Assembly (NCBI GenBank): GCA_902628335.1
Contig: CACOMO010000005.1
Span: forward strand, 1-56,246
From: an uncultured Gammaproteobacteria bacterium
Lineage (GTDB): Bacteria > Pseudomonadota > Gammaproteobacteria > GCA-002705445 > GCA-002716945
Direction: 5' to 3'
DNA length: 56,246 bases
Below are positions 11,749 to 56,246 of this stretch, in pieces. Position 1 is the stretch's first letter. Every line of letters begins with the position of its first letter. Under the pieces are notes generated by a model that saw only the letters and a program-made list of their open reading frames with translations, searched no databases and was not told the DNA's origin. Made by a program: the position numbers and the translations under genes.

Positions 11749-12033
11749 TCAAGACTTATGATTTTTTTTTACTCGTAATTCTCTTGATTTTTTGGGATCA
11801 GCCGATGCATCATGGTAAACTTCTATTCTATCAAATTCTTTAAGCTTATAGTCTAAATCCTTAGTTTTACCAAAAACACCAAAGCTTAAATTAGCTAATG
11901 AGTGTAATTCCTCAAGTTCTATTTTATCCAAAAATTCTTTCAAAGTTGTGCCATCATTTATAATTTTAAATCTAGATACGATACGTTTGTTGATCGGAAA
12001 AAAGATTTCGATCTTAATTTTTTTGTTTTTCAT
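11749..12033 (-). CDS. rnfH: RnfH family ubiquitin-like protein
   Basis: This is a 94-residue beta-grasp protein of the RnfH family (YfjF in E. coli), whose function is not established. Evidence is the N-terminal strand IKIEIFFP, the central SFGVFGKTKDLDYKLKEFDR (usual form: VGIFGK...L..GDR), and the hallmark C-terminal IEVYHDASADPKKSR, where ADPK is diagnostic. It overlaps the 3' end of ratA by 20 bases. The ratA-rnfH pair divergent from smpB is conserved in gammaproteobacteria. Confidence 0.88.
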   Translation of the reverse strand: MKNKKIKIEIFFPINKRIVSRFKIINDGTTLKEFLDKIELEELHSLANLSFGVFGKTKDLDYKLKEFDRIEVYHDASADPKKSRELRVKKNHKS

Positions 12034-12460
12034 TTTTTAATCGAAAAGCTTCTGATATAAATGAATCTAAAATAGAAGACATTATGGTAGAAAAAATTGG
12101 CTTAAGGGATAGTTCAATAATTTTACTATCAAATTCATACTCCAAAAATAAACTAACATTTGTATTATATTTATCAATTACATGAAATTTCCAATAACCA
12201 TCTAAGTTTTTAAAAGGACCATCCATTAATTGTATTTTTATAATTTCATTAACTTCATAAGTATTTTTAGTTTTAAATTTCCACTTGATTGGCTTTCCTG
12301 ATATTTCAATTTCAGCAACCATTTCCGAAGATGAATCACTCAGAATTATAGAGCTTGAGCACCATGGCAAAAAGGTAGAGTATCTTTCAACATTATTAAT
12401 CAATTTGAAAATCAAAGAGACGTCTACGTTTATATCTTCTGATTGATTAACTACATTCAT
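12014..12460 (-). CDS. ratA: RatA/COQ10-type START-domain protein
   Basis: This 148-residue SRPBCC/START protein belongs to the group that contains bacterial RatA and eukaryotic COQ10. The E. coli member was described as inhibiting 70S ribosome assembly, whereas COQ10 homologues bind ubiquinone; which role applies here is open. The layout fits: an N-terminal strand and helix (residues 1-25), ERYSTFLPWCSSS near 27-39 (the usual YP.FLPWC motif), GPFKNLDGYWKF near 86-97, and a C-terminal helix. The ATG at 12460 shares a base with the symporter stop (TAATG), which fixes the start and indicates coupling. Longer in-frame extension upstream is not conserved. Confidence 0.85.
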   Translation of the reverse strand: MNVVNQSEDINVDVSLIFKLINNVERYSTFLPWCSSSIILSDSSSEMVAEIEISGKPIKWKFKTKNTYEVNEIIKIQLMDGPFKNLDGYWKFHVIDKYNTNVSLFLEYEFDSKIIELSLKPIFSTIMSSILDSFISEAFRLKNEKQKN

Positions 12461-13890
12461 TATACAAAACCATTGATGAAGATGAGGGTAACTGCCACTG
12501 GTGCTATAAACCTGATTATGAATCTCCAAAAATTAAATAATGTTTGGCTCATCTCCAATTCATCACTAACTATCTTTCTTTTAACAATGAATCCAACAAA
12601 TATTGCCATTAAGAGACCACCTAACGGTAACATTATTTTTGAGGTAAAATTATCCAGTAGATCAAAAAATGTCATCCCAAACAAAGTAATATCAGAAAGA
12701 TGATTGAAGGATAAGAGTGTACCTATGCCTAGGAGCCATGTGAGCGAGCTCAAACGAACGGTGGCCTCTGCTCTGCTAAATGAATATTTTTCTATTAGAA
12801 AACTTATCGCTGGTTCTATCAACGATATTGAGGATGTAATAGCTGCAAAAAAAAGTAGAATAAAAAATAAGGTTGCTACTATTTCACCATATGGCATAAC
12901 CCCAAATGCTATAGGTAAAGTCTTGAATATTAGTCCTGGCCCGGCAGATGATGGGTCAAGATTAAATGTGAAAACCATCGGGAAAATTATAATTCCTGCT
13001 AGTATAGCAACAAATGTATCAGAAAATGCAACAACAGCGGTTACTTCTGTTATGGACGACTCTCTTGATAAATACGATCCGTATATCATGAGAGATCCCA
13101 TTCCAATACTCAATGAGAAGAATGCCATACCCATGGCACTTAAAACTACATCTGGACTAATCTTGTCGAGATCTGGTATAAACATATATTTAATACCATC
13201 TTGAAATCCATCTAAATTTAAAGAATAAATAGCTAGGCCGAGTAATAAAATAAATAAACCTGGAATAAGAACTTTTACAGCCTTCTCTAATCCACCTTTT
13301 ACGCCCTTCGCGACAATATATCCAGTAAGGAACATAAATATCGTGTGCCAAGCTAGAAGTTTTTCAGGATCAGAAACTAGATCACTAAAAATAACTTGAG
13401 ACTGCTCAGCAGTAACAAGATTGAAAACGCCGAAAGCTGCTTTAAAAATATATGATATTGTCCACCCTGCGATTACACTATAAAATGACAATATGAGGAT
13501 CCCAGCAATCATACCAGCCCAGCCAACTAGCTGCCAGTTGCTATAATCATCCGAATTCGAATATGACTGTGTCTTAGAGCGAACTCTATTTAGATCACTA
13601 TCGACCTCTAGAAAATTAAAACTGCTAGACTCATTAGCTGTAAATTTAAGACTATCAACTGGATTTTGCTTTCCGTGTCTACCTATAAAAACCTCCGCAA
13701 TCATGATAGGTAAAGCTATAATAATAACGCTAAGTATGTATATCAAGACAAATGCTCCCCCTCCATTCTCACTAGTCATCCACGGGAATTTCCAAATATT
13801 CCCTAGACCAACTGCAGAACCTGTGGCAGCAAAAATAAATATTAATTTAGAGGACCATTCGCCATGGATGGATTTTCTTTCTTTGTTAAT
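12460..13890 (-). CDS. neurotransmitter:sodium symporter (NSS/SNF family), probable ATT start
   Basis: This is a sodium-coupled amino acid or amine importer of the LeuT fold with about 11-12 membrane segments. The first segment carries the family signature ATGSAVGLGNIWKFPW, followed by NGGGAF; these unwound-TM1 residues form the Na+ and substrate sites. The first in-frame ATG (13779) comes after this essential motif, so it cannot be the true start. The frame opens after a TAG at 13903-13905 and has no ATG, GTG, TTG or CTG before the motif. The best candidate is ATT at 13890, with AGGAG 9 bases upstream, giving 476 residues. Substrate is unknown. The gene sits between smpB and ratA, where most relatives have nothing. 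Confidence 0.88.
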   Translation of the reverse strand: MNKERKSIHGEWSSKLIFIFAATGSAVGLGNIWKFPWMTSENGGGAFVLIYILSVIIIALPIMIAEVFIGRHGKQNPVDSLKFTANESSSFNFLEVDSDLNRVRSKTQSYSNSDDYSNWQLVGWAGMIAGILILSFYSVIAGWTISYIFKAAFGVFNLVTAEQSQVIFSDLVSDPEKLLAWHTIFMFLTGYIVAKGVKGGLEKAVKVLIPGLFILLLGLAIYSLNLDGFQDGIKYMFIPDLDKISPDVVLSAMGMAFFSLSIGMGSLMIYGSYLSRESSITEVTAVVAFSDTFVAILAGIIIFPMVFTFNLDPSSAGPGLIFKTLPIAFGVMPYGEIVATLFFILLFFAAITSSISLIEPAISFLIEKYSFSRAEATVRLSSLTWLLGIGTLLSFNHLSDITLFGMTFFDLLDNFTSKIMLPLGGLLMAIFVGFIVKRKIVSDELEMSQTLFNFWRFIIRFIAPVAVTLIFINGFV

Positions 13891-24487: not shown

Positions 24488-25453
24488 TAAGTCTTTTATT
24501 ATATCCCTTTCATGTAATAATTCTCTTTCTGTAGCTTTCAAATAATTATGAGAAATATCTGATATGTCCAGATCTTCAATTATTTTGTGATTCTCAGTAT
24601 TCACACTCAAGGGAAATGAATAAAATATTTCTGAAGCTATCTCATAGCTATTTGTTGACAATATACCCATTGACTCCCAATCTTCTGAGCCATTTACAAT
24701 ACAATTTAAATGATCATATACTGCAGAAGCGGCAGAGGCAGCACTTGATTTACCTCTATAATCAATAATTTCTGCGCCACGATTTTGTACTCGTGGAATG
24801 AAATCGTTAATGACCCAACTATCATCATACTTATTATCAAGATTATTCAAGCCATCTACTTGAACATTATTAATATCTGGGAACTGTGTAGAAGAGTGAT
24901 TTCCCCAGACAACAAGTCTACTCACTAATGGAACTGGAACATTCAGTTTAGATGCAAAAATACTTTTAGCTCTATTTTGATCCAATCTCATTAAAGAAGT
25001 TATATTTTCAGAGGGTAACTTTGGGGTATGACGTGAAACAATAAGAGCGTTGGTGTTTGCAGGATTGCCAACAACTATAATTTTAGTTGTATCTTTACAG
25101 TGTTGATTGATGGCTATTCCTTGATTTTTGAATATGTTAGCATTATCTAATAATAAATCAGATCTTTGCATTCCCTTTGAGCGTGGTTTCGCACCAACTA
25201 AAAGTATATAGTCAGAATCTCCAAACGCGACTTCCATGCTATCTGTAGTGATAATCGAATCTAGAGAATCAAATGCACAATCTTCAATCTCATATTTTAC
25301 ACCTTTGAGTATCTTTGCGGACTCGGATATATCAAGGAGATTAAGTTGTATTTTAGTATCTTTCGAGAATATTTGACCAGATAATATTCGGAATATGAGT
25401 GAATAAGCTATATTACCTGCTGCACCTGTTATTGTAATTATTTTCTTTGTCAT
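24482..25453 (-). CDS. mdh: malate dehydrogenase
   Basis: This enzyme interconverts malate and oxaloacetate with NAD(H). The 323 residues are of the cytosolic-type MDH subfamily common in bacteria. The nucleotide-binding ITGAAGNIAYSL lies at 8-19, the substrate-binding arginine loop GAKPRSKGMQRSDLL near 87-101, VVGNPANTNAL near 125-135, and the catalytic histidine in VVWGNHSSTQFPD near 182-194. It is coupled to kdsB by an ATGA overlap, although the two pathways are unrelated. Together with the sdh operon across ygfZ it makes a small TCA cluster. Confidence 0.95.
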   Translation of the reverse strand: MTKKIITITGAAGNIAYSLIFRILSGQIFSKDTKIQLNLLDISESAKILKGVKYEIEDCAFDSLDSIITTDSMEVAFGDSDYILLVGAKPRSKGMQRSDLLLDNANIFKNQGIAINQHCKDTTKIIVVGNPANTNALIVSRHTPKLPSENITSLMRLDQNRAKSIFASKLNVPVPLVSRLVVWGNHSSTQFPDINNVQVDGLNNLDNKYDDSWVINDFIPRVQNRGAEIIDYRGKSSAASAASAVYDHLNCIVNGSEDWESMGILSTNSYEIASEIFYSFPLSVNTENHKIIEDLDISDISHNYLKATERELLHERDIIKDLL

Positions 25454-26166
25454 TTGAATTTCTTCTTTGCTAATTTTAGATCATTCTTAGTATTTATACT
25501 AATTGAATCATTAGATTTTATCGATATACATTTTATCGGCACAGTATTAAATAGAAATCTATTCTGTTCAAGTGATTCTTCAGTTTCTATCTCACCTCTC
25601 TTAAGTTTTCTATATTTAGATAGTACATTCACTCTATAGGCATAGATTCCAAGGTGAGCATAAAAGTTTTTTGAATCATGCGGAATTAAAGATCTTGAGA
25701 AATAGATCGCATCATCATTTTTATTTTTAACAACTTTAACTAGATTTTTATCTATGATGTTTGAATAATTGGTAGATGGGTAAATTAATGTTGCAACGTA
25801 GGTTTTTTTATTATTTCGAAAATATTTTTTTATCTTATCTATTGCTGATAGCGGAAAATTTAATTCATCTGCTTGAATATTGACTATCAGATCCAACGGA
25901 TTATATTTTTTTAATTTACAAAAGTTTGCAATCCTTTCAGTGCCATTAGAATAATTTTTTTTACTATAGTAACAATCAACACCACAAGACTTTACAATTT
26001 TTTGAATTATTTTACTGTCAGTTAAGACAGCAAGACTATCACAATGTATTTTTTTGGCTCTGAGACAAATATGCTCGATTAAAGTTTTGTCTGATATCTT
26101 TTGTAGGAGTTTTTTGGGAAATCTTTTTGATTCAAGTCTAGCTGGTATAAGTATTCTGATTTTCAT
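25450..26166 (-). CDS. kdsB: 3-deoxy-manno-octulosonate cytidylyltransferase
   Basis: KdsB activates Kdo as CMP-Kdo for inner-core LPS. The 238 residues start IRILIPARLESKRFPKKLL, the nucleotide-binding motif of CMP-Kdo synthetases. They continue with VNIQADELNFPLSAI near 93-107 (usually NVQGDEP; here A replaces G and L replaces P) and a later HLGIYAYRVNVL. Length is normal. The gene is coupled by ATGA overlaps to lpxK upstream and mdh downstream. Confidence 0.93.
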   Translation of the reverse strand: MKIRILIPARLESKRFPKKLLQKISDKTLIEHICLRAKKIHCDSLAVLTDSKIIQKIVKSCGVDCYYSKKNYSNGTERIANFCKLKKYNPLDLIVNIQADELNFPLSAIDKIKKYFRNNKKTYVATLIYPSTNYSNIIDKNLVKVVKNKNDDAIYFSRSLIPHDSKNFYAHLGIYAYRVNVLSKYRKLKRGEIETEESLEQNRFLFNTVPIKCISIKSNDSISINTKNDLKLAKKKFK

Positions 26167-27155
26167 ATTTTAATAATTTTATCTACAAGATTATCTATTA
26201 TATTATTATCTTTATATCTATGTTCTAGTATCCAGAGGTTATTATTTCGATATTTTTCTAACTTCATATAATCTTTCATAGTAACAAATATAGGATTATT
26301 ATCATCAAATATTATTTCACTTCCATTAAAATCATGATGATCATTATAGAAGTTACGATCCACCGTAAAACCTTTTTCAATTAATTCATTTTCAATAATT
26401 TCTGGTATAGCTATCCCTATAACCAAATGGATATTCTTTTCTAGAAAATCATTAATTGGAATATTCAGACCTTTAAGAGGATGTCTGATTTGAAAAGTGT
26501 CATATTCTAGATCAATGAACTCTCTATCTACATCAAATACTCTGTGATAAACTAAAGATCGCCAAGGACCGGATGGCAACATTTTACAGAAATGCAAATT
26601 ATCACTTATGGTGCCTATGTAGCTCTTTTTTTTGCTAACAATAATCTCCATCTTCCTTCCGAGTCGAAGGTGATCTAACCCATCATCGTGTATAATATAA
26701 TCTGGATTTTCATGAATCAATTGTTCTGTTGCTTTTACACGATCTTTCCCTGAGATTACTGATGCAGTCGTAGATCTTGCGATAAGTACTGCCTCATCGC
26801 CTATATTACTTGGACTTGACTCAGGTGTAACCTTAGTCAAACTTTTATTTCTTGATTTATATCCTGATACAACTATTCCGACTTTTAACCCTCTTGAACT
26901 AAGCTCATTTGCAACTGAAATAGTAAGAGGAGTCTTCCCTTGACCACCTATGATGCTATTGCCTACAACCACAACAGGTTTTTCAAAATGTATAGTGCGA
27001 AATATTTGATATTTATAGAGGGTAGACCGAATTATCATGGTTAGAAAATATATCCCAGATAAAGGCAGAAGACATAAACTTATAATCAGATAAAACCAAT
27101 ATTGATTATCCCCTTTCTTTATGTACCAAAGTTTATTTAAAAAGAAACTCAACAT
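26163..27155 (-). CDS. lpxK: tetraacyldisaccharide 4'-kinase
   Basis: LpxK phosphorylates the 4' position of the lipid A precursor disaccharide at the inner membrane. The 330 residues begin with a hydrophobic segment (about 18-41). A P-loop follows in VVVGNSIIGGQGKTPLTISV near 61-80, the standard LpxK Walker A, and IIHDDGLDHLRLGR contains the catalytic acidic pair. Length is typical. It overlaps the msbA 3' end by 7 bases; msbA-lpxK-kdsB is a conserved LPS cluster. Confidence 0.95.
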   Translation of the reverse strand: MLSFFLNKLWYIKKGDNQYWFYLIISLCLLPLSGIYFLTMIIRSTLYKYQIFRTIHFEKPVVVVGNSIIGGQGKTPLTISVANELSSRGLKVGIVVSGYKSRNKSLTKVTPESSPSNIGDEAVLIARSTTASVISGKDRVKATEQLIHENPDYIIHDDGLDHLRLGRKMEIIVSKKKSYIGTISDNLHFCKMLPSGPWRSLVYHRVFDVDREFIDLEYDTFQIRHPLKGLNIPINDFLEKNIHLVIGIAIPEIIENELIEKGFTVDRNFYNDHHDFNGSEIIFDDNNPIFVTMKDYMKLEKYRNNNLWILEHRYKDNNIIDNLVDKIIKI

Positions 27156-28918
27156 TTACTATTTACTGGGAATTGCATCCTATGCAGATTGGAGTACAAC
27201 CCATCTTCTTTAATCAGTTTCTCATGATTTCCTTGTTCAACAATCTTACCTTGGTCTAAAACTATTATATTGTCTGCCTTTTCGATTGTTGATAATCGAT
27301 GAGCGATTACTATAGTTGTCCTATTCTTACGAAGATCATCTAAAGCTTGTTGTATTAATTTTTCGGATTCAGAATCAAGTGAACTCGTAGCTTCATCAAG
27401 GAGGAGTATTGGTGAATCCTTAAGTATTGCTCTTGCAATAGCGATTCTCTGTCTTTGCCCTCCCGATAACAAAACACCATTATCTCCTACTAGAGTATCA
27501 AAACCTTTCTCGAAAGACATAATAAAATCGTATGCATGTGCTGTCTTTGATGCATCAATTATTTGTCCTTCTGACTTGTTTTCTAAAAGACCATAAGCAA
27601 TATTATTTCTTACTGTATCATTAAAAAGCGTGAGATCTTGACCAACATATGCAATCATCGCTCTTAATTCAGGTAGGGTAGCTTTATTTATATCTTTATT
27701 ATCAATTTCTATCTTACCCTCATCGATATCATAAAATCTTGGTAGTAAATTCATCAATGTTGACTTTCCACTGCCAGATCTACCAACAATCGCACAACTA
27801 TTACCTCTAGGAACTTCAAAATTTATATTATCCAAAGCAAAGCTATCTGTTCCTGCATATGAGAATTTAATATTAACAAATTTAATATTGCTAAAGTCTT
27901 TATCTAGAAAGTTTTTTTCGCCTTTATCTTTATCCTCTGTCTCAGAGTCTAGTAATGTGAAGATTGATTCGCTAGCTGCAAGTCCTCTTTGAAGAACTAC
28001 ATTTATTTCAGCTAATCTTTTTATGGGAGCAAAAACGAGTATCATAGCTGTAATAAAAGACATGAATGTACCTACAGAGATATCAGAACTATAAGCCTGG
28101 GAAGTTACGTAATAAATCACACCAGCAAGAAAAACTGCAACTACAAATTGTACCATAGGTATACTCACACCTTGAATTAAAGCAAGTTTAAGGTGTCTAT
28201 TTTTATTATTTTCATTCACTATTTCGAAAGAGTTTTTCTCACTCTGCTCTCCTCCAAATATCTTTACTACACGATGACCAGCTATGAGTTCCTCAACAAC
28301 ATTAGTAATGTAACCCATAGAGTCTTGAATATGTTTGCTAGTATCTCTAAACTTTACGCTCATGAGTTTTATGAATATTGCAATCACTGGACCTATTACA
28401 AACAGACCGACAGAGAGAATGAAACTTTGATAGAACATAAGGCTTACTAGTCCGATTACTGTGAGTCCATCACGAACTAAAACTGTCAGCGCTTTCGTGG
28501 CTGCTTCAGCTACTTGTTCAGTATCATATGTCACTTTTGATAACAGTTCTCCAGACGAAGAAAAATCATATGTTCTTGTTGGGGTATGAACTAATCTATC
28601 AAACATTTGTTTTCTTATCTTCTTTACAATATTTCTGCCAACCCAAGCAATACCATATGTTGAGATAAAACCAGCAATACTTCTGAGTAAAAATAAGCTT
28701 ACTAAAATAATTGGAAAAAACTTAATTGTATCAGGATCCTTTTCTACAAAGCTTCCATCTAGAAGTGGCTTCATCAATGCTGCGAACGCAGTATCTGTTA
28801 TTGCGAAAGCAGCCATAGATAGGATTGAGATAAAGAAAACTATTTTATGCTCAAAAGTATAGGATAGTAATCTCCTATATAGACCCTGTTCTTTTGATGG
28901 ATTTCTATTTTGTGACAT
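27149..28918 (-). CDS. msbA: lipid A export ABC transporter/permease MsbA
   Basis: MsbA flips lipid A-core across the inner membrane. The 589 residues form a half-transporter with six membrane segments (about residues 20-315). The nucleotide-binding domain carries Walker A VGRSGSGKSTLMN, the signature LLSGGQRQRIAIARAIL and Walker B ILLLDEATSSLDSE. Its placement directly upstream of lpxK supports MsbA over a generic multidrug exporter. It is divergent from the DUF2062 gene. Confidence 0.95.
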   Translation of the reverse strand: MSQNRNPSKEQGLYRRLLSYTFEHKIVFFISILSMAAFAITDTAFAALMKPLLDGSFVEKDPDTIKFFPIILVSLFLLRSIAGFISTYGIAWVGRNIVKKIRKQMFDRLVHTPTRTYDFSSSGELLSKVTYDTEQVAEAATKALTVLVRDGLTVIGLVSLMFYQSFILSVGLFVIGPVIAIFIKLMSVKFRDTSKHIQDSMGYITNVVEELIAGHRVVKIFGGEQSEKNSFEIVNENNKNRHLKLALIQGVSIPMVQFVVAVFLAGVIYYVTSQAYSSDISVGTFMSFITAMILVFAPIKRLAEINVVLQRGLAASESIFTLLDSETEDKDKGEKNFLDKDFSNIKFVNIKFSYAGTDSFALDNINFEVPRGNSCAIVGRSGSGKSTLMNLLPRFYDIDEGKIEIDNKDINKATLPELRAMIAYVGQDLTLFNDTVRNNIAYGLLENKSEGQIIDASKTAHAYDFIMSFEKGFDTLVGDNGVLLSGGQRQRIAIARAILKDSPILLLDEATSSLDSESEKLIQQALDDLRKNRTTIVIAHRLSTIEKADNIIVLDQGKIVEQGNHEKLIKEDGLYSNLHRMQFPVNSKC

Positions 28919-49900: not shown

Positions 49901-50387
49901 TTTTGAAAATATTCCCAAGTAGCTTAATGTTCCTTCTTACATTATCGTTATCTACATTTAATAGATTTTTACCAACAATTCCATTATACCCACCTGTACA
50001 TAATATAAGATCATGACTATTTTTCTTTATATCCTCAATAGAAATTGAAGGTAATTTACTTCCAGACTTATTAATATGTATATCGGTAATGAGTTTAATT
50101 AAATTTCTATATCCTTTTTGATTTTTGCAAAGTAATGTAACAAAAGGTTGTTGATTACTGTACTCAAAATTACTTATTGGTACCTGACAGCCTATTATTG
50201 GCTTAATCTTGTTGTCGATACATGCCTGATAAAATTTGATCACATTAAATGTGTTGAGAAAGTCCGTAATCGCCAGCGCAGTTAGTTTATGTTTTTTTGC
50301 CTTTTTAATAAGAGTATTTAGATCGATCGTACTATCGATTAGTGAGTAAGCTGTTCTTAATGACAAATGTGTAAATAAATTCTTCAT
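46923..50387 (-). CDS. dnaE: DNA polymerase III alpha subunit
   Basis: DnaE is the replicative polymerase subunit. The 1154 residues have the N-terminal PHP domain (FTHLSLRTAYSLIDS at 4-18) and a polymerase core with PVGPGRGSGAGSLVAY near 347-362 and the catalytic acidic motif MPDFDIDFC near 390-398. KHAAGIVIS and GYGFNKSHSVAYAYISYQTA follow, with a helix-hairpin-helix and OB-fold in the C-terminal third (SLSGVIIDSRMQRVG). The gene is intact. It shares an ATGA overlap with rnhB. Confidence 0.98.
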   Translation of the reverse strand: MKNLFTHLSLRTAYSLIDSTIDLNTLIKKAKKHKLTALAITDFLNTFNVIKFYQACIDNKIKPIIGCQVPISNFEYSNQQPFVTLLCKNQKGYRNLIKLITDIHINKSGSKLPSISIEDIKKNSHDLILCTGGYNGIVGKNLLNVDNDNVRRNIKLLGNIFKNNLYIEIQRTNHISEKNINNRVLKIAQEIKLPIIATNNVLFVNKDDFESHEVKVCINKKIKLDDRIEQTEYTENQYFKTPDEMRELFHDLPDAIINVGEIIKRCNLKLELNTYHMPEFEAPTGVTIDKHFETVVRNGLKEKLITVNETEHEKYFSRLDSEMHVIKKMGFTSYFLIVHEFISWSKNNNIPVGPGRGSGAGSLVAYSLGITSVDPLPHNLLFERFLNSDRISMPDFDIDFCMVNRQKVIEHISEKYGNDKVSQIITYGSLAARAVIRDVGRVLGMGYTFVDKIAKLVPFTPGITINDALKQNKELREKYDSSEEIKNLIDTSKKIEGLPRNVGKHAAGIVISPNEIYNHIPLYRVEESGEIVTQYDKDDIEKLGLVKFDILGLRTLSIIDKTIHNLRAKKISDINIDTIIPNDPKVYDLMQKRLTTGVFQLESSGMKRYMGQLKPDCFDDIVALVALYRPGPLGTNMVDDFINNKHGKKINYEHPLLEPILSPTYGLILYQEQVMEISRALAKYTLGEADILRRAMGKKKKEEMENQRQKFLLGAKENKIPEHIAESIFSKMEKFAGYGFNKSHSVAYAYISYQTALLKTYYPSEFLASALSSDIDNTDKVISLIKAANEIGIKVVRPNINTSSYEFKALDDKVLMFGLGAIKGVGLNAVKHLTIERDQNGPFNNIFEFCERVSHSVINIAAMDALIFSGAFDLFDENRIFLKRVLDKALTYGQKKQITKTTGQTELFASDTSSSVAKNVKSTEKILKQTRENRLEILQNEKKVLGLYLSGHPITEYESEIKSMGFKSISYYLNKINDGMKEKYSEYVSLSGVIIDSRMQRVGNDRFINILSIDDSSGSIEVIVYPDVYDKYKEMLRENEILFVTGNISIDDYNGSLSIKASSVVDIDYARQNFSKKIELLISSDKTNDETIRKLLNILEPHKNGKCPLIIKCISKQHIVPLSLDEQWHINPTSILINNLTKLLGSENIIVKYQ

Positions 50388-50953
50388 ATATCAATATCTT
50401 TAAGGGGTGAGAATGACATCCTATGATAAATTGATGGACCGAATTGTTTAAGTAACTCAATATGCTTAGCTGTTCCATATCCTTTATTTTTACCAAACTG
50501 ATATACATTATATGGCTGATCAATTCTAATCATAAAATTATCTCTTACAACTTTAGCTAAGATAGATGCCGCGGAGACAGCGGGTATAGATTTATCAGCC
50601 TTCACAACTGATTCGCATCTTATAGAGTGATCTGGAATATATAGGCCATCAATAATTGCTTTTTCTGGTGTAATAGATAATGATGAGAGTGATCTACTCA
50701 TAGAAAGTAGTGTTGCATGATGGATATTCATTTGATCAATCTCAATATTATTACATAACCCTATGCCGACAGCTACAGAATTTTTAATAATGTGATCAGC
50801 GATCTTCTCTCTTTTAACAGATGTCAGTTCTTTTGAATCACATAGTAGCGACATATCTATAGTGTCAGCAAGTACCACAGATGCAGATATAACAGGACCC
50901 GCAAGACACCCTCTGCCAACCTCGTCTACGCCAGCTAAAATTGAGCTTGTCAT
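50384..50953 (-). CDS. rnhB: ribonuclease HII
   Basis: RNase HII removes ribonucleotides embedded in DNA. The 189 residues begin ILAGVDEVGRGCLAGPV, with the first catalytic acidic pair, and show LCDSKELTSVKRE, IIDGLYIPD (Asp), and SAASILAKVVRDNFM with the last Asp. The ATG at 50953 is chosen because upstream in-frame codons only offer TTG and no conservation. It is divergent from the oxidoreductase block with 67 bases between starts. Confidence 0.95.
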   Translation of the reverse strand: MTSSILAGVDEVGRGCLAGPVISASVVLADTIDMSLLCDSKELTSVKREKIADHIIKNSVAVGIGLCNNIEIDQMNIHHATLLSMSRSLSSLSITPEKAIIDGLYIPDHSIRCESVVKADKSIPAVSAASILAKVVRDNFMIRIDQPYNVYQFGKNKGYGTAKHIELLKQFGPSIYHRMSFSPLKDIDI

Positions 50954-51020
50954 AAAAAGTCCACTATATATAATTGAATCTATACTTAAATATATCAAAA
51001 AAGAGAATTCAATACTCCAT

Positions 51021-51935
51021 ATGGCGAAAAAAAAATTAAGAGTAGCAGTAATAGGCCTAGGTTACTTAGGCAAATATCATCTTGAAAAATATCTCAATAA
51101 TCAGAATGTTACTGTTAAATGGGTGATTGACAGTGATATCAATAATTTAAAGCTAAATATTAACGATTCAATTAAAAAATCCACTGATTATAAGGATATC
51201 ATTGGCAATGTTGATTGCGCCTCAATTGTTACTCCTACAGTAAGCCATTATCAGATTGCAAAATCATTATTGCAAAATAGAATAAATATCCTATTAGAAA
51301 AACCAATGACTCAGACACTATACCAAGCAAAAAAATTAAATAGCTTAATCAAGAGAAAAAAAACTATCATGCAAGTTGGTCACTTGGAGAGATTTAATCC
51401 TGTAATGGAGAAGCTAACTAGCGAGATTAATAATCCTGCATTTATTGAAGTACACAGACTTGCTGAATTTAACCCAAGGTCAACAGATGTAAACGTAATA
51501 TTTGACTTAATGATTCATGACATAGATATTATTCTCTCTTTAATAAAATCACCCATAAAGAAAATATTTGTATTTGGAAAAAAAATAATTACAGAAACTA
51601 CAGATATCGCTAATGTACGAATTGAGTTCACAAATCATGCTGTTGCTAACTTAACAGCAAGTAGAATAAGCGCGAAGAATGAGAGAAAAATCCGTATCTT
51701 TGAAAAAAATAAATACTATTCTGTTGATTTCTTACTCTCTAAAATGAATATATTTACCAAAAAGTCTAATCGTATTTTTAAAAAAAATGAGTATAGCTAT
51801 AAAAAAACTGACTCGCTAAAGAAAGAGATTAATAATTTTGTCAACTCTTGCTTAGGACTTGAAAAACCTCTTGTTGATGGTATAAATGGAATGAATGCTC
51901 TAAAAGTGGCTGAGGATATATCGAGAAAACTATGA
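51021..51935 (+). CDS. gnnA: Gfo/Idh/MocA oxidoreductase, probable UDP-GlcNAc 3-dehydrogenase GnnA
   Basis: This 304-residue NAD(P)-dependent sugar dehydrogenase has a Rossmann loop GLGYLGKYH at 12-20, the family motif LLEKPMTQT near 92-100 (EKP lysine), GHLERFNP, and MIHDIDII, a DxxxH-type catalytic pair. The ATG at 51021 is used; upstream frame lies inside rnhB on the other strand. By itself this is a generic family. Next to a DegT-type aminotransferase and lpxB, and beside lpxA, it matches GnnA of Acidithiobacillus ferrooxidans and Leptospira, which oxidises the 3-OH of UDP-GlcNAc for lipid A. An O-antigen role like WbpB/WlbA is the main alternative. Confidence 0.7.
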   Translation: MAKKKLRVAVIGLGYLGKYHLEKYLNNQNVTVKWVIDSDINNLKLNINDSIKKSTDYKDIIGNVDCASIVTPTVSHYQIAKSLLQNRINILLEKPMTQTLYQAKKLNSLIKRKKTIMQVGHLERFNPVMEKLTSEINNPAFIEVHRLAEFNPRSTDVNVIFDLMIHDIDIILSLIKSPIKKIFVFGKKIITETTDIANVRIEFTNHAVANLTASRISAKNERKIRIFEKNKYYSVDFLLSKMNIFTKKSNRIFKKNEYSYKKTDSLKKEINNFVNSCLGLEKPLVDGINGMNALKVAEDISRKL

Positions 51936-53029
51936 AAAAAATTAAATTATTTGATCTCTCCCGGCAGTACAGTCGTCTGAAATCTACTTTAGAACCTAAA
52001 ATATCTAAAGTTTTAAAGAATGGACAATACATAATGGGTAAAAATGTAAGTACATTTGAGAAAAATGTTTCAAAATATCTATCGACTAAAAATGCAGTAA
52101 CTTGCAACTCTGGTACAGATGCCTTAATTATAGCGCTGAGAGCTCTCGATATTAATAAGGGTGATGAGGTTCTCACAACCCCATTTACCTATTTCTCTAC
52201 GACAGAAGCAATTTTACTCGTTGGTGCAAAACCTATATTTGTTGATATTGATCCGATAACTTTCAATATTGATCCATCTAAAATTGAACAAAAAATTACA
52301 AAGAAAACAAAAGCTATTTTAGGTGTGCATATTTTTGGTCATCCCTATCAAGCAGACAAAGTCAATAATATTTGTAAAAAATATAAGATAAAAATGATCG
52401 AAGACTGTGCTCAATCTTTTGGAGCATCGATTGATAATAAGCAAACAGGTACTTTCGGTGACGTGGGTTGTTTTAGTTTTTTTCCAACTAAGAATTTAGG
52501 ATGTGCTGGTGATGGTGGCATGTTTATAACAGATAATAATCAACTTGCTAATAAGGCTAGAATGCTCCGCAATCATGGAGGGATTCAAAGAAATGAACAT
52601 AATCTAATAGGTTATAATAGTCGTTTGGATGAAATTCAAGCTGTCGTTCTCCTAGAGAAACTCAAGTTAGTAACTAAACTTAATAATGATAGAATTAGAA
52701 TTGCAAATAAATATAGTAAGTCCATCAATAACGATAAAATAATCACGCCCTCTAGTCTTGATAATGTTAAGCATATTTATCATCAATATACACTAGTTGT
52801 AGATAATAGGACTAAATTTACTAACTATTTAACCAAGAATGGTATACCTTACGGAATCTACTATCCTAAACCTACATATATGCAAGCAGCTGTTAAAAAG
52901 AAAATAAAAAATTTACCAAAGCTTAAAAATGCAGAAAGACTATGCAAGAGTTGTGTATCTATACCAATGTTTCCTGAATTAACAAAAAAAGAATATGAAA
53001 CAATTATCGATATAATTAATGACTATTAA
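51932..53029 (+). CDS. gnnB: DegT/DnrJ/EryC1 aminotransferase, probable GnnB
   Basis: This 365-residue PLP-dependent sugar aminotransferase has NSGTDALIIALRAL near 54-67, TPFTYFSTTEAILLVGA, MIEDCAQSFGA with the PLP-binding Asp, and the Schiff-base lysine in FSFFPTKNLGCAGDGG near 180-195. YNSRLDEIQAVVLLEKL and the C-terminal SIPMFPELT follow. It is coupled to the oxidoreductase by an ATGA overlap. In GnnB the enzyme aminates the 3-keto sugar to UDP-GlcNAc3N, using glutamate. The proposal depends on context; related enzymes (WbpE, ArnB) act on other sugars. Confidence 0.72.
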   Translation: MKKIKLFDLSRQYSRLKSTLEPKISKVLKNGQYIMGKNVSTFEKNVSKYLSTKNAVTCNSGTDALIIALRALDINKGDEVLTTPFTYFSTTEAILLVGAKPIFVDIDPITFNIDPSKIEQKITKKTKAILGVHIFGHPYQADKVNNICKKYKIKMIEDCAQSFGASIDNKQTGTFGDVGCFSFFPTKNLGCAGDGGMFITDNNQLANKARMLRNHGGIQRNEHNLIGYNSRLDEIQAVVLLEKLKLVTKLNNDRIRIANKYSKSINNDKIITPSSLDNVKHIYHQYTLVVDNRTKFTNYLTKNGIPYGIYYPKPTYMQAAVKKKIKNLPKLKNAERLCKSCVSIPMFPELTKKEYETIIDIINDY

Positions 53030-54161
53030 AGAGACAAGTGAAATATTTGTGATAACAGGTGAATCATCTGGTGACCAGCATGCTGCCAAATATATCAGAG
53101 AACATCGCCTCCTAAACAAAAATGTTCAGTTTTCAGGAATTGGGCAAGACAGCATGAGAGATGCAAACGTGACATTGATTCATAATTCAGAAGACATCGC
53201 GGTAGTAGGACTAACAGAGGTTATATTTAAATATAGGAATATAAAGCGAGTTCTTAATTTAGCCAAGAAATATATCAAGGATAATAAACCTGATTTAGTC
53301 GTTTTAGTTGATTATGTTGAATTTAATCTCAAGATTGCTGCTTATGCGAAGTCATTTGATATACCAACGCTTTTCTATATAGCACCTCAAGTATGGGCTT
53401 GGCGGAAAGATAGAATCAATAATATTATTAAAGTTGTAGATCATTTAGCTGTTGTGTTTCCTTTCGAATTTGAAATTTTCTCGAGAGTCTCGAAAAATGT
53501 ATCCTTTGTTGGGCACCCACTAGCTGATGATATTGAACTGAAACCGAGTGATGTAAGTTATCAAGATAAAAAATATGATTTAGGTATTTTTCCTGGTAGT
53601 AGAGAGTCTGAAATTAAAAATAATATTTTTACAATGCTTGACTGTATAAAACCTTCTAAAGAAAAAGATTCGAGACACACTAATATAAAGATTTTTTATT
53701 CTAACGAACGATCTAAGAAACTATTAGAGAAAATGTTACCAAAACATATGCATTCGAACCTTGCAAGCGGAAAAGATAGAGAAAAGATTAAGCTTTGTAA
53801 AAAAGCAATAACCGCATCAGGTACGATCACACTCGAGTTGGCTTTGATGGGTATTCCAATGGTTATAGTGTATCAATTGTCTCTGATAACTTACCTTATT
53901 ATGAAAAGAATGGTTAAACTAAAGTATATTGGATTAGTAAATTTAGTGCTAGGAGACAATTTAGGAGATGAAATGGTTGTTAAGGAATATATTCAACCAA
54001 AATATCATGATCAAGTAGAGATCATGGCAGAATTAGACAGAATAGATAATGATATCAATTACCGTGATGAGATAATAGAAAAATACACTAGAGTAAGGAA
54101 AGAATTGAAGCCTGGTGCAGCAAAAAATCTTGCCTCTATTGCCGATAAACTTATTTCCTGA
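53019..54161 (+). CDS. lpxB: lipid-A-disaccharide synthase
   Basis: LpxB joins UDP-2,3-diacylglucosamine and lipid X to the lipid A disaccharide. The 380 residues include ITGESSGDQHAA at 12-23, VVGLTEV, VLVDYVEFNLKIA, and the family hallmark APQVWAWRKDRI near 125-136. GHPLAD and PGSRESEIKNN follow, with a late TASGTITLELALMG. The start lies 11 bases inside the aminotransferase gene, so the three genes are one operon. Its stop is one base from the convergent lpxA stop. Confidence 0.97.
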   Translation: MTIKETSEIFVITGESSGDQHAAKYIREHRLLNKNVQFSGIGQDSMRDANVTLIHNSEDIAVVGLTEVIFKYRNIKRVLNLAKKYIKDNKPDLVVLVDYVEFNLKIAAYAKSFDIPTLFYIAPQVWAWRKDRINNIIKVVDHLAVVFPFEFEIFSRVSKNVSFVGHPLADDIELKPSDVSYQDKKYDLGIFPGSRESEIKNNIFTMLDCIKPSKEKDSRHTNIKIFYSNERSKKLLEKMLPKHMHSNLASGKDREKIKLCKKAITASGTITLELALMGIPMVIVYQLSLITYLIMKRMVKLKYIGLVNLVLGDNLGDEMVVKEYIQPKYHDQVEIMAELDRIDNDINYRDEIIEKYTRVRKELKPGAAKNLASIADKLIS

Positions 54162-54162
54162 T

Positions 54163-54933
54163 TTATCTTGTAATGCCTCTACTACTCTCGAGAATAAAAT
54201 CAACAAAATATTTTGATTCTTTGGAGTTATGTTCAGATTCATTAAATGTCCTAATGCAATCTTCCCTAGGGATTTTTGATTTTATAAATAACTTAAATAT
54301 TTTTTCCAAAGACTGAATTACTTCGTCAGTCATCCCAGATCTTCTAAGGCCAGTAGTATTAATTTTATATGCGCGAGCATGGTTACCAGCAACTAATGTA
54401 AAGGGAGTTACATCTCTAGAAATAACAGAACCAAGACCACTAAAAGCATAATCTCCTATATTGCAAAATTGGTGAACTAATGTAAACCCACCAAGTGATA
54501 CATTATTTCCTATCACTACATGTCCTGCAAGAGATGCAGCATTAGAAAAAATACAATTATCTTTAATAATACAATCATGTGCAACATGTGTATATGACAT
54601 GAAAAGATTATTTGATCCTATTACTGTTTTGTTAATTCCTGCTTCTGTACCTCTGTTAATAGTACAAAATTCTCTAAAAGTGTTATTATCAGATATTATT
54701 AATTCAGATTCCTCACCATGAAATTTCAAATCTTGGGGTATTTCACCTATTGAAGTAAATTGATAAATTTTATTGTTAGATCCAATGGTAGTATTACTTC
54801 TTATAATAGCATGAGGTTCTATTGAAGTATTTTTATCAATTCTCACACCTTCTTCGATTATAGAATACGCTCCAACTGAAACTGTTGAATCTAATTCAGC
54901 ACTTGGATGAACTATAGCTGTTTTATGTATCAT
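54163..54933 (-). CDS. lpxA: acyl-[ACP]--UDP-N-acetylglucosamine O-acyltransferase family protein LpxA
   Basis: LpxA adds the first 3-hydroxyacyl chain to UDP-GlcNAc, or to UDP-GlcNAc3N in organisms with GnnAB. The 256 residues form a left-handed beta helix of hexapeptide repeats (HPSAELDS, IGSNNKIYQFTSIGEIPQDLKF in part), with the catalytic histidine in YTHVAHDCI near 114-122 and GNHARAYKINTTGLRR. At the position that measures chain length (Gly173 in E. coli) the hand alignment gives Leu in SGLGSV. The ATG at 54933 is chosen over an upstream TTG and overlaps the fabZ end by 11 bases. Confidence 0.96.
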   Translation of the reverse strand: MIHKTAIVHPSAELDSTVSVGAYSIIEEGVRIDKNTSIEPHAIIRSNTTIGSNNKIYQFTSIGEIPQDLKFHGEESELIISDNNTFREFCTINRGTEAGINKTVIGSNNLFMSYTHVAHDCIIKDNCIFSNAASLAGHVVIGNNVSLGGFTLVHQFCNIGDYAFSGLGSVISRDVTPFTLVAGNHARAYKINTTGLRRSGMTDEVIQSLEKIFKLFIKSKIPREDCIRTFNESEHNSKESKYFVDFILESSRGITR

Positions 54934-55363
54934 TTTTGTTTTTAACTGCGCCCAATAACTCTGCAAGACATACTACATTGTCATCAACTTTACAGACTGC
55001 GTCAAATTTATGAACATCTCTTTTACTATTGGTTAGCTTGACTTCAATAATTAAAACATCGCCGGGATAAACTGGTTTTTTGAACCTTGCTTTATCTATG
55101 CCAACAAAGTAGTAAAGTAAATCTGGATTATTTCTCTCATTACTTTTAAAGTCTAGTAAAGCAGTGGCCTGAGCCATTGCCTCTAAAATTAGAACACCAG
55201 GGAATACAGGATAATCTGGAAAATGTCCTTGAAAGAATGGTTCGTTATTACTAACATTCTTTTGAGCGATAAGATATTCATGCTTCTTATAGTCGATTAA
55301 TTTATCAATTAAAAGAAAAGGATACCTATGAGGTAAGTAATTAATTATGTCGTTCTTAGTCAT
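54923..55363 (-). CDS. fabZ: 3-hydroxyacyl-[ACP] dehydratase FabZ
   Basis: FabZ dehydrates 3-hydroxyacyl-ACP in fatty acid elongation and competes with LpxA and LpxD for the same substrates. The 146 residues of the hot-dog fold show [13 protein letters not shown] at 9-21, the catalytic His in [12 protein letters not shown] near 45-56 and the catalytic Glu in [10 protein letters not shown] near 57-66. [16 protein letters not shown] follows. It overlaps lpxD by 8 bases upstream and lpxA downstream, the usual lpxD-fabZ-lpxA operon. Confidence 0.97.
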
Positions 55364-56246
55364 TTTTTTTCCCTTTATCTTTGGTTAATTTTTTTAAAGT
55401 ATTATCAAGAGCTTTGAACCTGGCTTGATTTCTTCTCCAGCTATCAGCTGGTTCTACCGTAGTTCCTGATGCATATTGCCCAGCCTCTAAAAGACTTTTC
55501 GTTACCATCGTCATTCCGTGAATATGAACATCATCTGTAATTGTTATGTGCCCATTTATGCCACTTCCTCCTCCGATTGTACAATTTTTTCCAATAATTG
55601 TGCTACCTGCAATCCCGACACATGCTGCGATCGCAGTATTTGTTCCGATCTGTACGTTGTGAGCTATGTGGACAAGATTATCAATCTTTACATTATCAGC
55701 AATTCTTGTCATATCTATTGATCCACAATCAATTGTCGTATTTGCACCAATTTCAACATGATCACCAATAGAAACACCGCCTACTTGAGGTACCTTCTCC
55801 CACAACTTCTGCTCATTTAGAACAAGGCCAAAGCCATCGGCACCGATTACTGCACCTGAGTGAATTATCACATTAGAGCCAATTTTTACATTACTATATA
55901 TTGTAACATTAGGATAAATAATACTGTTATCTCCAACTACAACATCATTTGCAATATCTGCGCTATTAGCTATTAGCGCGGTTGATGCTACATTCCTTAA
56001 ATTTGAAACATCTTTGATGCTGTGAAAGTTAATTTTTTCTTTGATATTATCTTTCAGTATTCTAGAAAAAATAAGCTGAGGGTTTCTAGAAATTAAACAA
56101 CATTTATTAATTGATTTAGATAGTTCATTGGTTGTCAGTAAGCATGTTATTTTATTATTCTCGGCAAATTCTAACATTTTTTTATCATTTATAAATACTA
56201 ATGATTCATGAGTCGGTTTGATAATACTAGCGATTGAGCTTACATG
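55356..56246 (-). CDS. lpxD: UDP-3-O-acylglucosamine N-acyltransferase LpxD (5' end outside window)
   Basis: LpxD adds the N-linked hydroxyacyl chain in lipid A synthesis. The frame stays open to the right edge of the window (296 residues visible), and relatives are about 340 residues, so roughly 40-45 N-terminal residues are missing. An ATG at 56177 is internal: residues before it (SLVFINDKK) match the N-terminal LpxD domain. The beta helix carries many hexapeptide repeats, the catalytic histidine in [13 protein letters not shown], and [11 protein letters not shown]. It heads the lpxD-fabZ-lpxA run. Confidence 0.95.

Follow-up and report, generated by a model that had tools for sequence, protein, structure and literature searches.

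A gnnA-gnnB-lpxB block facing lpxA suggests lipid A built on a 2,3-diamino sugar in an uncultured gammaproteobacterium

What is the role of an oxidoreductase gene and an aminotransferase gene that run directly into lpxB, the gene of lipid-A-disaccharide synthase? The question is raised by positions 51021-54933 of a stretch of DNA from an uncultured Gammaproteobacteria bacterium (the window: the whole of contig C5, 56246 bases, of a 0.91 Mb assembly), where two genes that we identify as gnnA and gnnB are followed by lpxB and faced by lpxA. A preliminary description, made from the sequence, had proposed that the organism makes lipid A with extra amide-linked chains. The coupling to lpx genes, the position of GnnA in a tree, the clade of LpxB and the residues of LpxA all argue for this proposal, and gnnA and gnnB very probably supply UDP-GlcNAc3N, the 3-amino form of UDP-N-acetylglucosamine (UDP-GlcNAc), for lipid A synthesis. 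The genes of the block are:

gnnA, 51021..51935, + strand: 304 amino acids, Gfo/Idh/MocA family, putative UDP-GlcNAc 3-dehydrogenase by PF01408, NF040723, the structure 7bvj and the tree
gnnB, 51932..53029, + strand: 365 amino acids, DegT/DnrJ/EryC1/StrS family, putative 3-keto-sugar aminotransferase by PF01041, PDB matches, trees and motif
lpxB, 53019..54161, + strand: 380 amino acids, lipid-A-disaccharide synthase of the gnnA-linked type by TIGR00215 and the tree
lpxA, 54163..54933, - strand: UDP-GlcNAc(3N) acyltransferase, PRK05289/TIGR01852 above cut-off, start codon ATG at 54933

Results

The gnnA and gnnB genes are joined by an ATGA overlap, gnnB and lpxB overlap by 11 bases, and lpxB and lpxA converge with a gap of one base between their ends. 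Coordinates and families agree with the preliminary description, which had a Gfo/Idh oxidoreductase and a DegT aminotransferase coupled by ATGA and running into lpxB; its statement that the block ends one base from lpxA also holds (lpxB stop at 54161, lpxA end at 54163). The intact gnnA-gnnB-lpxB/lpxA block was found in 22 of 25 genomes of the family to which the window genome belongs, and since the arrangement recurs in this way, it is not a product of chance. The other three genomes represent assembly gaps: the contig of G002 ends inside lpxA, while G023 and G024, which are 68-69% complete, lack gnnA, lpxB and lpxA altogether. None of the 25 genomes had lpxA and lpxB without gnnA. The family includes the metagenome-assembled genome (MAG) ERR599066_bin.47 (L071), which we take to be derived from Tara Oceans reads.

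GnnA matched PF01408 (Gfo/Idh/MocA) over the cut-off, and its best NCBIfam match was NF040723 (UDP-GlcNAc 3-dehydrogenase, E 1.3e-50). The score of 172.7 bits lies below the curated equivalog cut-off of 450 for that model, which is an archaeal one; the NCBIfam matches to GnnA included no model of the bacterial enzyme. A PDB search placed 7bvj at the top (E 5.7e-44), with a runner-up 31 orders of magnitude weaker (7.3e-13), and none of the best 60 matches bears the name WbpB. Lys94 of an EKP motif, and Asp162 and His166 of a DLMIHD motif, are invariant in 28 aligned homologues. The protein shares 42-47% identity with lpx-linked GnnA from across the Proteobacteria. In the tree the family is placed among lpx-linked GnnA, on branches shared with other lpx-linked rows (99/95 and 96/89); a second marine MAG (L077) is the sister of the family GnnA (99/94). 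The grouping anticipated in the preliminary description was thus recovered for GnnA, with other Gfo/Idh enzymes standing apart, and GnnA is predicted to carry out the 3-oxidation of UDP-GlcNAc.

GnnB matched PF01041 (DegT/DnrJ/EryC1) with an E value of 7.6e-114, and by motif position its pyridoxal phosphate lysine is Lys187 of a PTK motif, accompanied by Asp158. Its solved relatives in the PDB search were 7b0d, 7n63, WbpE and QdtB, and the labels include a scyllo-inositol transaminase. The family GnnB sequences are AT-rich with long branches, and in the trees neither the ArnB clade nor the WbpE clade (100/100) includes them. From these matches, GnnB would transaminate the 3-ketone. The window genome has a single GnnB match and a single LpxA; no other DegT enzyme was found in it, and a second Gfo/Idh gave a weak match of 25.5 bits.

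LpxB was compared in a tree of 68 proteins, whose rows were picked partly by similarity to the window LpxB and whose proportions are not population estimates. The tree has two deep parts, split with a support of 100/98. The E. coli-type part has 20 rows, which are Escherichia coli and 11 others without gnnA, and eight with gnnA elsewhere. The other part contains all 35 gnnA-adjacent LpxB, including that of the window and drawn from Gammaproteobacteria, Legionella and Desulfobacterota, together with eight gnnA-lacking and five unlinked rows. As all 35 gnnA-adjacent LpxB are in one clade, gnnA and that LpxB type travel together. The two-clade split, with gnnA-linked LpxB confined to one clade, is new here.

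Two sets of genomes depart from this association. Eight with gnnA have an E. coli-type LpxB (G265, G118, G050, G038, G156, G106, G207 and G141; loci L341-L348), and there gnnA lies mostly far from lpx genes and may serve surface polysaccharide. Eight others have a gnn-type LpxB and no GnnA match (G161, G273, G026, G183, G177, G267, G210 and G280; loci L302, L304, L305, L311, L314, L316, L324 and L332) and are candidates for secondary gnnA loss or assembly gaps; Gln104 of LpxA (E. coli numbering) was missing in the six examined.

The LpxA of 42 gnnA-bearing and 61 gnnA-lacking genomes was then compared in the same numbering, with one LpxA from each genome and with the window and E. coli among them. 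The two sets differ most clearly at columns 104, 76, 200 and 75. Gln104 is present in 6/42 gnnA-bearing against 47/61 gnnA-lacking genomes (p 2e-10), Lys76 in 27/42 against 61/61, Glu200 in 12/42 against 49/61, and Lys at 75 in 10/42 against 44/61; among the 21 genomes with gnnA beside lpxB, none has Gln104. In a correlated-evolution test on the LpxA tree, on which gnnA changes state 17 times, Lys76 ranked first and Gln104 second of 186 columns, with likelihood ratios of 24.4 and 21.5 (median 3.8, 95th percentile 13.1). Thus, gnnA is co-inherited with types of LpxA as well as of LpxB. In the window LpxA, positions 75, 76, 104 and 200 are occupied by Leu, Lys, Ala and Thr, a gnnA-like state at three of the four, and the catalytic histidine and all pocket histidines are kept. 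The LpxA of Leptospira prefers UDP-GlcNAc3N. Structure studies have placed Leu75, Lys76 and Glu200 (71, 72 and 196 in Pseudomonas aeruginosa) in the LpxA substrate pocket, where Lys76 touches the 6-OH of GlcNAc, and have shown that in Leptospira LpxA the lysine is absent and Val stands in place of the glutamate (PMC7072397).

Two further features of LpxA were observed. At E. coli position 173, the acyl-chain ruler, the window LpxA has Leu (Leu178 of the 267-amino-acid open reading frame), E. coli Gly and P. aeruginosa Met; the Leu suggests a chain shorter than C14. Several gnnA-bearing Gammaproteobacteria carry two LpxA genes (for example L073:14279-15860; L092:7213-7998 and 11969-12739). The pair is tandem in Simiduia aestuariiviva, and in an Ectothiorhodospiraceae MAG one LpxA lies directly upstream of gnnA; in such genomes there is possibly one LpxA per acceptor.

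Besides the block, LpxC, LpxL, WaaA, LpxK and LpxH were all found in the window genome, and LpxB and LpxD are in the window; LpxI was not found in the window genome, which has LpxH instead. LpxB, LpxA, FabZ and LpxD pass curated cut-offs (for LpxB, 235.1 bits against 190.25 with TIGR00215). The core pathway from UDP-GlcNAc to finished lipid A is therefore in place, although lpxD is truncated where the contig stops. The gnnA and gnnB genes are linked both to lpx genes and to a complete Raetz pathway.

Discussion

From the protein families, the reactions, the acceptor used by LpxA and the finished lipid A can be predicted as follows. GnnA would oxidize the 3-OH of UDP-GlcNAc to a ketone, and GnnB would convert the 3-ketone to a 3-amine by transamination. 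The single LpxA would then place a 3-hydroxyacyl chain on the 3-amine as an amide, and the 2-amine would be deacetylated by LpxC and acylated by LpxD. The disaccharide would be made by LpxH and the gnn-type LpxB and finished by LpxK, WaaA and LpxL, giving a lipid A on the 2,3-diamino sugar GlcN3N in which as many as four primary chains are bound as amides. Because of the amide chemistry, such a lipid A is predicted to resist base and deacylases. In other organisms, lipid A of this amide-linked form is known to stimulate immune receptors less and to be more difficult to deacylate. If the reading is true, a streamlined, uncultured family of marine Gammaproteobacteria has retained an additional pair of genes for making lipid A with such chains.

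Several points weigh against this reading, which is well supported by sequence. The catalytic residues of LpxA do not tell O-acylation from N-acylation, and it is the family and pocket residues that suggest N-acylation of the 3-amine by the window LpxA. Six gnnA-lacking genomes with a gnn-type LpxB are also without Gln104, so residue 104 may mark a lineage and not an acceptor; its absence in those six fits either later gnnA loss or simple lineage history. The attachment of GnnB to the lpx-type GnnB clade has a support of just 78/58, and the union of GnnB with the WbpE clade was not rejected (p-AU 0.22). For GnnB, the placement sought in the preliminary description separates the protein from the clades of WbpE and ArnB; its link to the lpx-type clade is weakly supported, and an origin next to WbpE stays compatible with the trees. 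In addition, a mixed GlcN/GlcN3N backbone is conceivable because one LpxA serves both sugars, and because E. coli LpxA reportedly takes UDP-GlcNAc3N if gnnAB are supplied.

Such a mixture would be a variant of the GlcN3N pathway, in which LpxA takes both UDP-GlcNAc and UDP-GlcNAc3N and the proportion of GlcN to GlcN3N is set by the activity of GnnA and GnnB. We consider this variant rather unlikely for the window genome. It would agree with the single LpxA available for both sugars, with the Lys at position 76 and the full set of histidines, and with the mixed backbones of Legionella israelensis and L. bozemanae (PMC7867332) and of Granulibacter (PMC8036547). On the other hand, the window LpxA is gnnA-associated at 75, 104 and 200, and genes that are always coupled suggest a constant supply of the amino sugar. 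A different possibility is that GnnA and GnnB provide a 2,3-diamino sugar of the GlcNAc3NAc type for O-antigen or capsule, as WbpB and WbpE do for the O-antigen of P. aeruginosa, and that their genes are near lpxB by accident. WbpB and WbpE belong to the same superfamilies as GnnA and GnnB, WbpE aminates a 3-keto UDP-sugar and is one of the nearest solved relatives of GnnB, whose union with the WbpE clade is the one not rejected above, and some genomes do have gnnA far from lpx genes together with an E. coli-type LpxB. However, the pair overlaps or is closely coupled with lpxB in every family member having the locus, an acetyltransferase is missing from the block, the LpxB type and the LpxA residues track gnnA linkage, and the best 60 PDB matches of GnnA hold no WbpB-named entry, which together make a surface polysaccharide role improbable. 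A WbpB/WbpE pair was accordingly set aside, with GnnB outside the WbpE clade but perhaps its sister. The clear clustering with WbpB/WbpE that the preliminary description named as contrary to its proposal was not seen, and GnnB alone does not prove the converse.

Least probable of all, and very much so, is that the two genes are relics or that their products work on a different nucleotide sugar, for example a dTDP-sugar in the manner of QdtB, or on inositol. The labels of the GnnB matches in PDB do include QdtB and a scyllo-inositol transaminase, but the frames are intact and the motifs conserved in a streamlined genome of 0.9 Mb and in its relatives, and QdtB forms a clade of its own in the GnnB tree, separate from the family GnnB, and a QdtB-like role was set aside.

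The pathway is already known and common, and its association with LpxB and LpxA is the part worth following. In an even sample of 274 Gammaproteobacteria, 99 (about a third) carry GnnA, one copy in each genome. Of 80 named gnnA loci, 54 have lpxB after gnnA, 29 have gnnB after it, and 8, including that of Thioalkalivibrio, show a convergent lpxA; like blocks occur across Gammaproteobacteria and Desulfobacterota. Our literature search did not find the gnnAB pathway reported for the window lineage, in line with the preliminary description, which knew of no account for it, but the layout is widespread and not peculiar to the lineage. For SAR86, which was weighed as the possible lineage, the paper on its isolate does not mention that organism's lipid A.

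GnnA and GnnB of Acidithiobacillus ferrooxidans reportedly lie between lpxA and lpxB (Sweet et al. 2004). The comparison with the window pair, made by description only, shows the same enzyme families, the lpx link and the same predicted conversion of UDP-GlcNAc to UDP-GlcNAc3N; the A. ferrooxidans locus is not among the 80 named gnnA loci. The preliminary description drew on that order, and it stands insofar as gnnA and gnnB adjoin lpxB. They are not between lpxA and lpxB, however, because they are upstream of lpxB, with lpxA on its far side, in the opposite direction and facing the block. Thioalkalivibrio shares the layout of the window (rnhB<, gnnA>, gnnB>, lpxB>, lpxA<, fabZ<, lpxD<). The gnnA-gnnB-lpxB order is the same in Thioalkalivibrio, Simiduia, Methylomonas and Geobacteraceae, although their genes, unlike those of the window, do not overlap; Simiduia also differs in its two tandem lpxA, and Geobacteraceae in an lpxA that is upstream on the same strand.

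Phyllobacterium (PMC5644692), Granulibacter (PMC8036547) and Oligotropha (PMC7663294) have been described as having gnnAB and GlcN3N lipid A, and in most Legionella the lipid A is known chemically to be a disaccharide of GlcN3N whose chains are bound as amides (PMC7867332). Legionella is the best chemical anchor available for the window pathway. The gnnA of L. wadsworthii, L. bononiensis, L. rowbothamii and L. santicrucis is 42-44% identical to that of the window and likewise adjoins rnhB (rnhB<, gnnA>, lpxB>), and their lpxB is in the LpxB clade of the window; unlike in the window, gnnA lacks an adjacent gnnB in these stretches, and lpxB an adjacent lpxA. A gnnA followed directly by lpxB, with no adjacent gnnB, was seen in many Desulfobacterota loci as well as in Legionella (L086, L102, L111, L120, L125, L083, L112, L119 and L147), and those of Desulfobacterota have a gap of ~800-1100 bases, the size of lpxI, between lpxA and gnnA.

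As a tentative idea, which we put somewhat below an even chance, gnnA(-gnnB)-lpxB may be a co-inherited module, with one LpxB clade tied to GlcN3N lipid A and with changes in the LpxA acceptor pocket and at the Gln104 position. If so, the LpxB type and LpxA residue 104 would predict GlcN3N lipid A from sequence, uncultured marine lineages included, and the two together form a signature that can be tested.

Neighbouring genes

The block is flanked by fabZ and lpxD on the lpxA side, and by rnhB, dnaE and accA on the opposite side. These neighbours, and lpxK elsewhere in the window, are:

fabZ, 54923..55363, - strand: 3-hydroxyacyl-ACP (acyl carrier protein) dehydratase, NF000582/TIGR01750 above cut-off
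lpxD, 55356..56246, - strand: N-terminus lost at the contig end, reading frame open at its 5' end, TIGR01853 above cut-off
rnhB, 50384..50998, - strand: RNase HII families, divergent neighbour of the block and marker of the canonical lpxA-lpxB-rnhB-dnaE locus
lpxK, 26163..27155, - strand: gene of the Raetz pathway, PF02606 with E 3.3e-55 at C5:26178-27080

E. coli has lpxD-fabZ-lpxA-lpxB-rnhB-dnaE in this order, all on one strand, whereas in the window gnnA-gnnB-lpxB is reversed between lpxA and rnhB; rnhB is a neighbour in E. coli and in relatives of the window genome alike. At 25450-28918 (- strand), lpxK lies between open reading frames of 589 and 238 amino acids, which by size alone fit msbA and kdsB.

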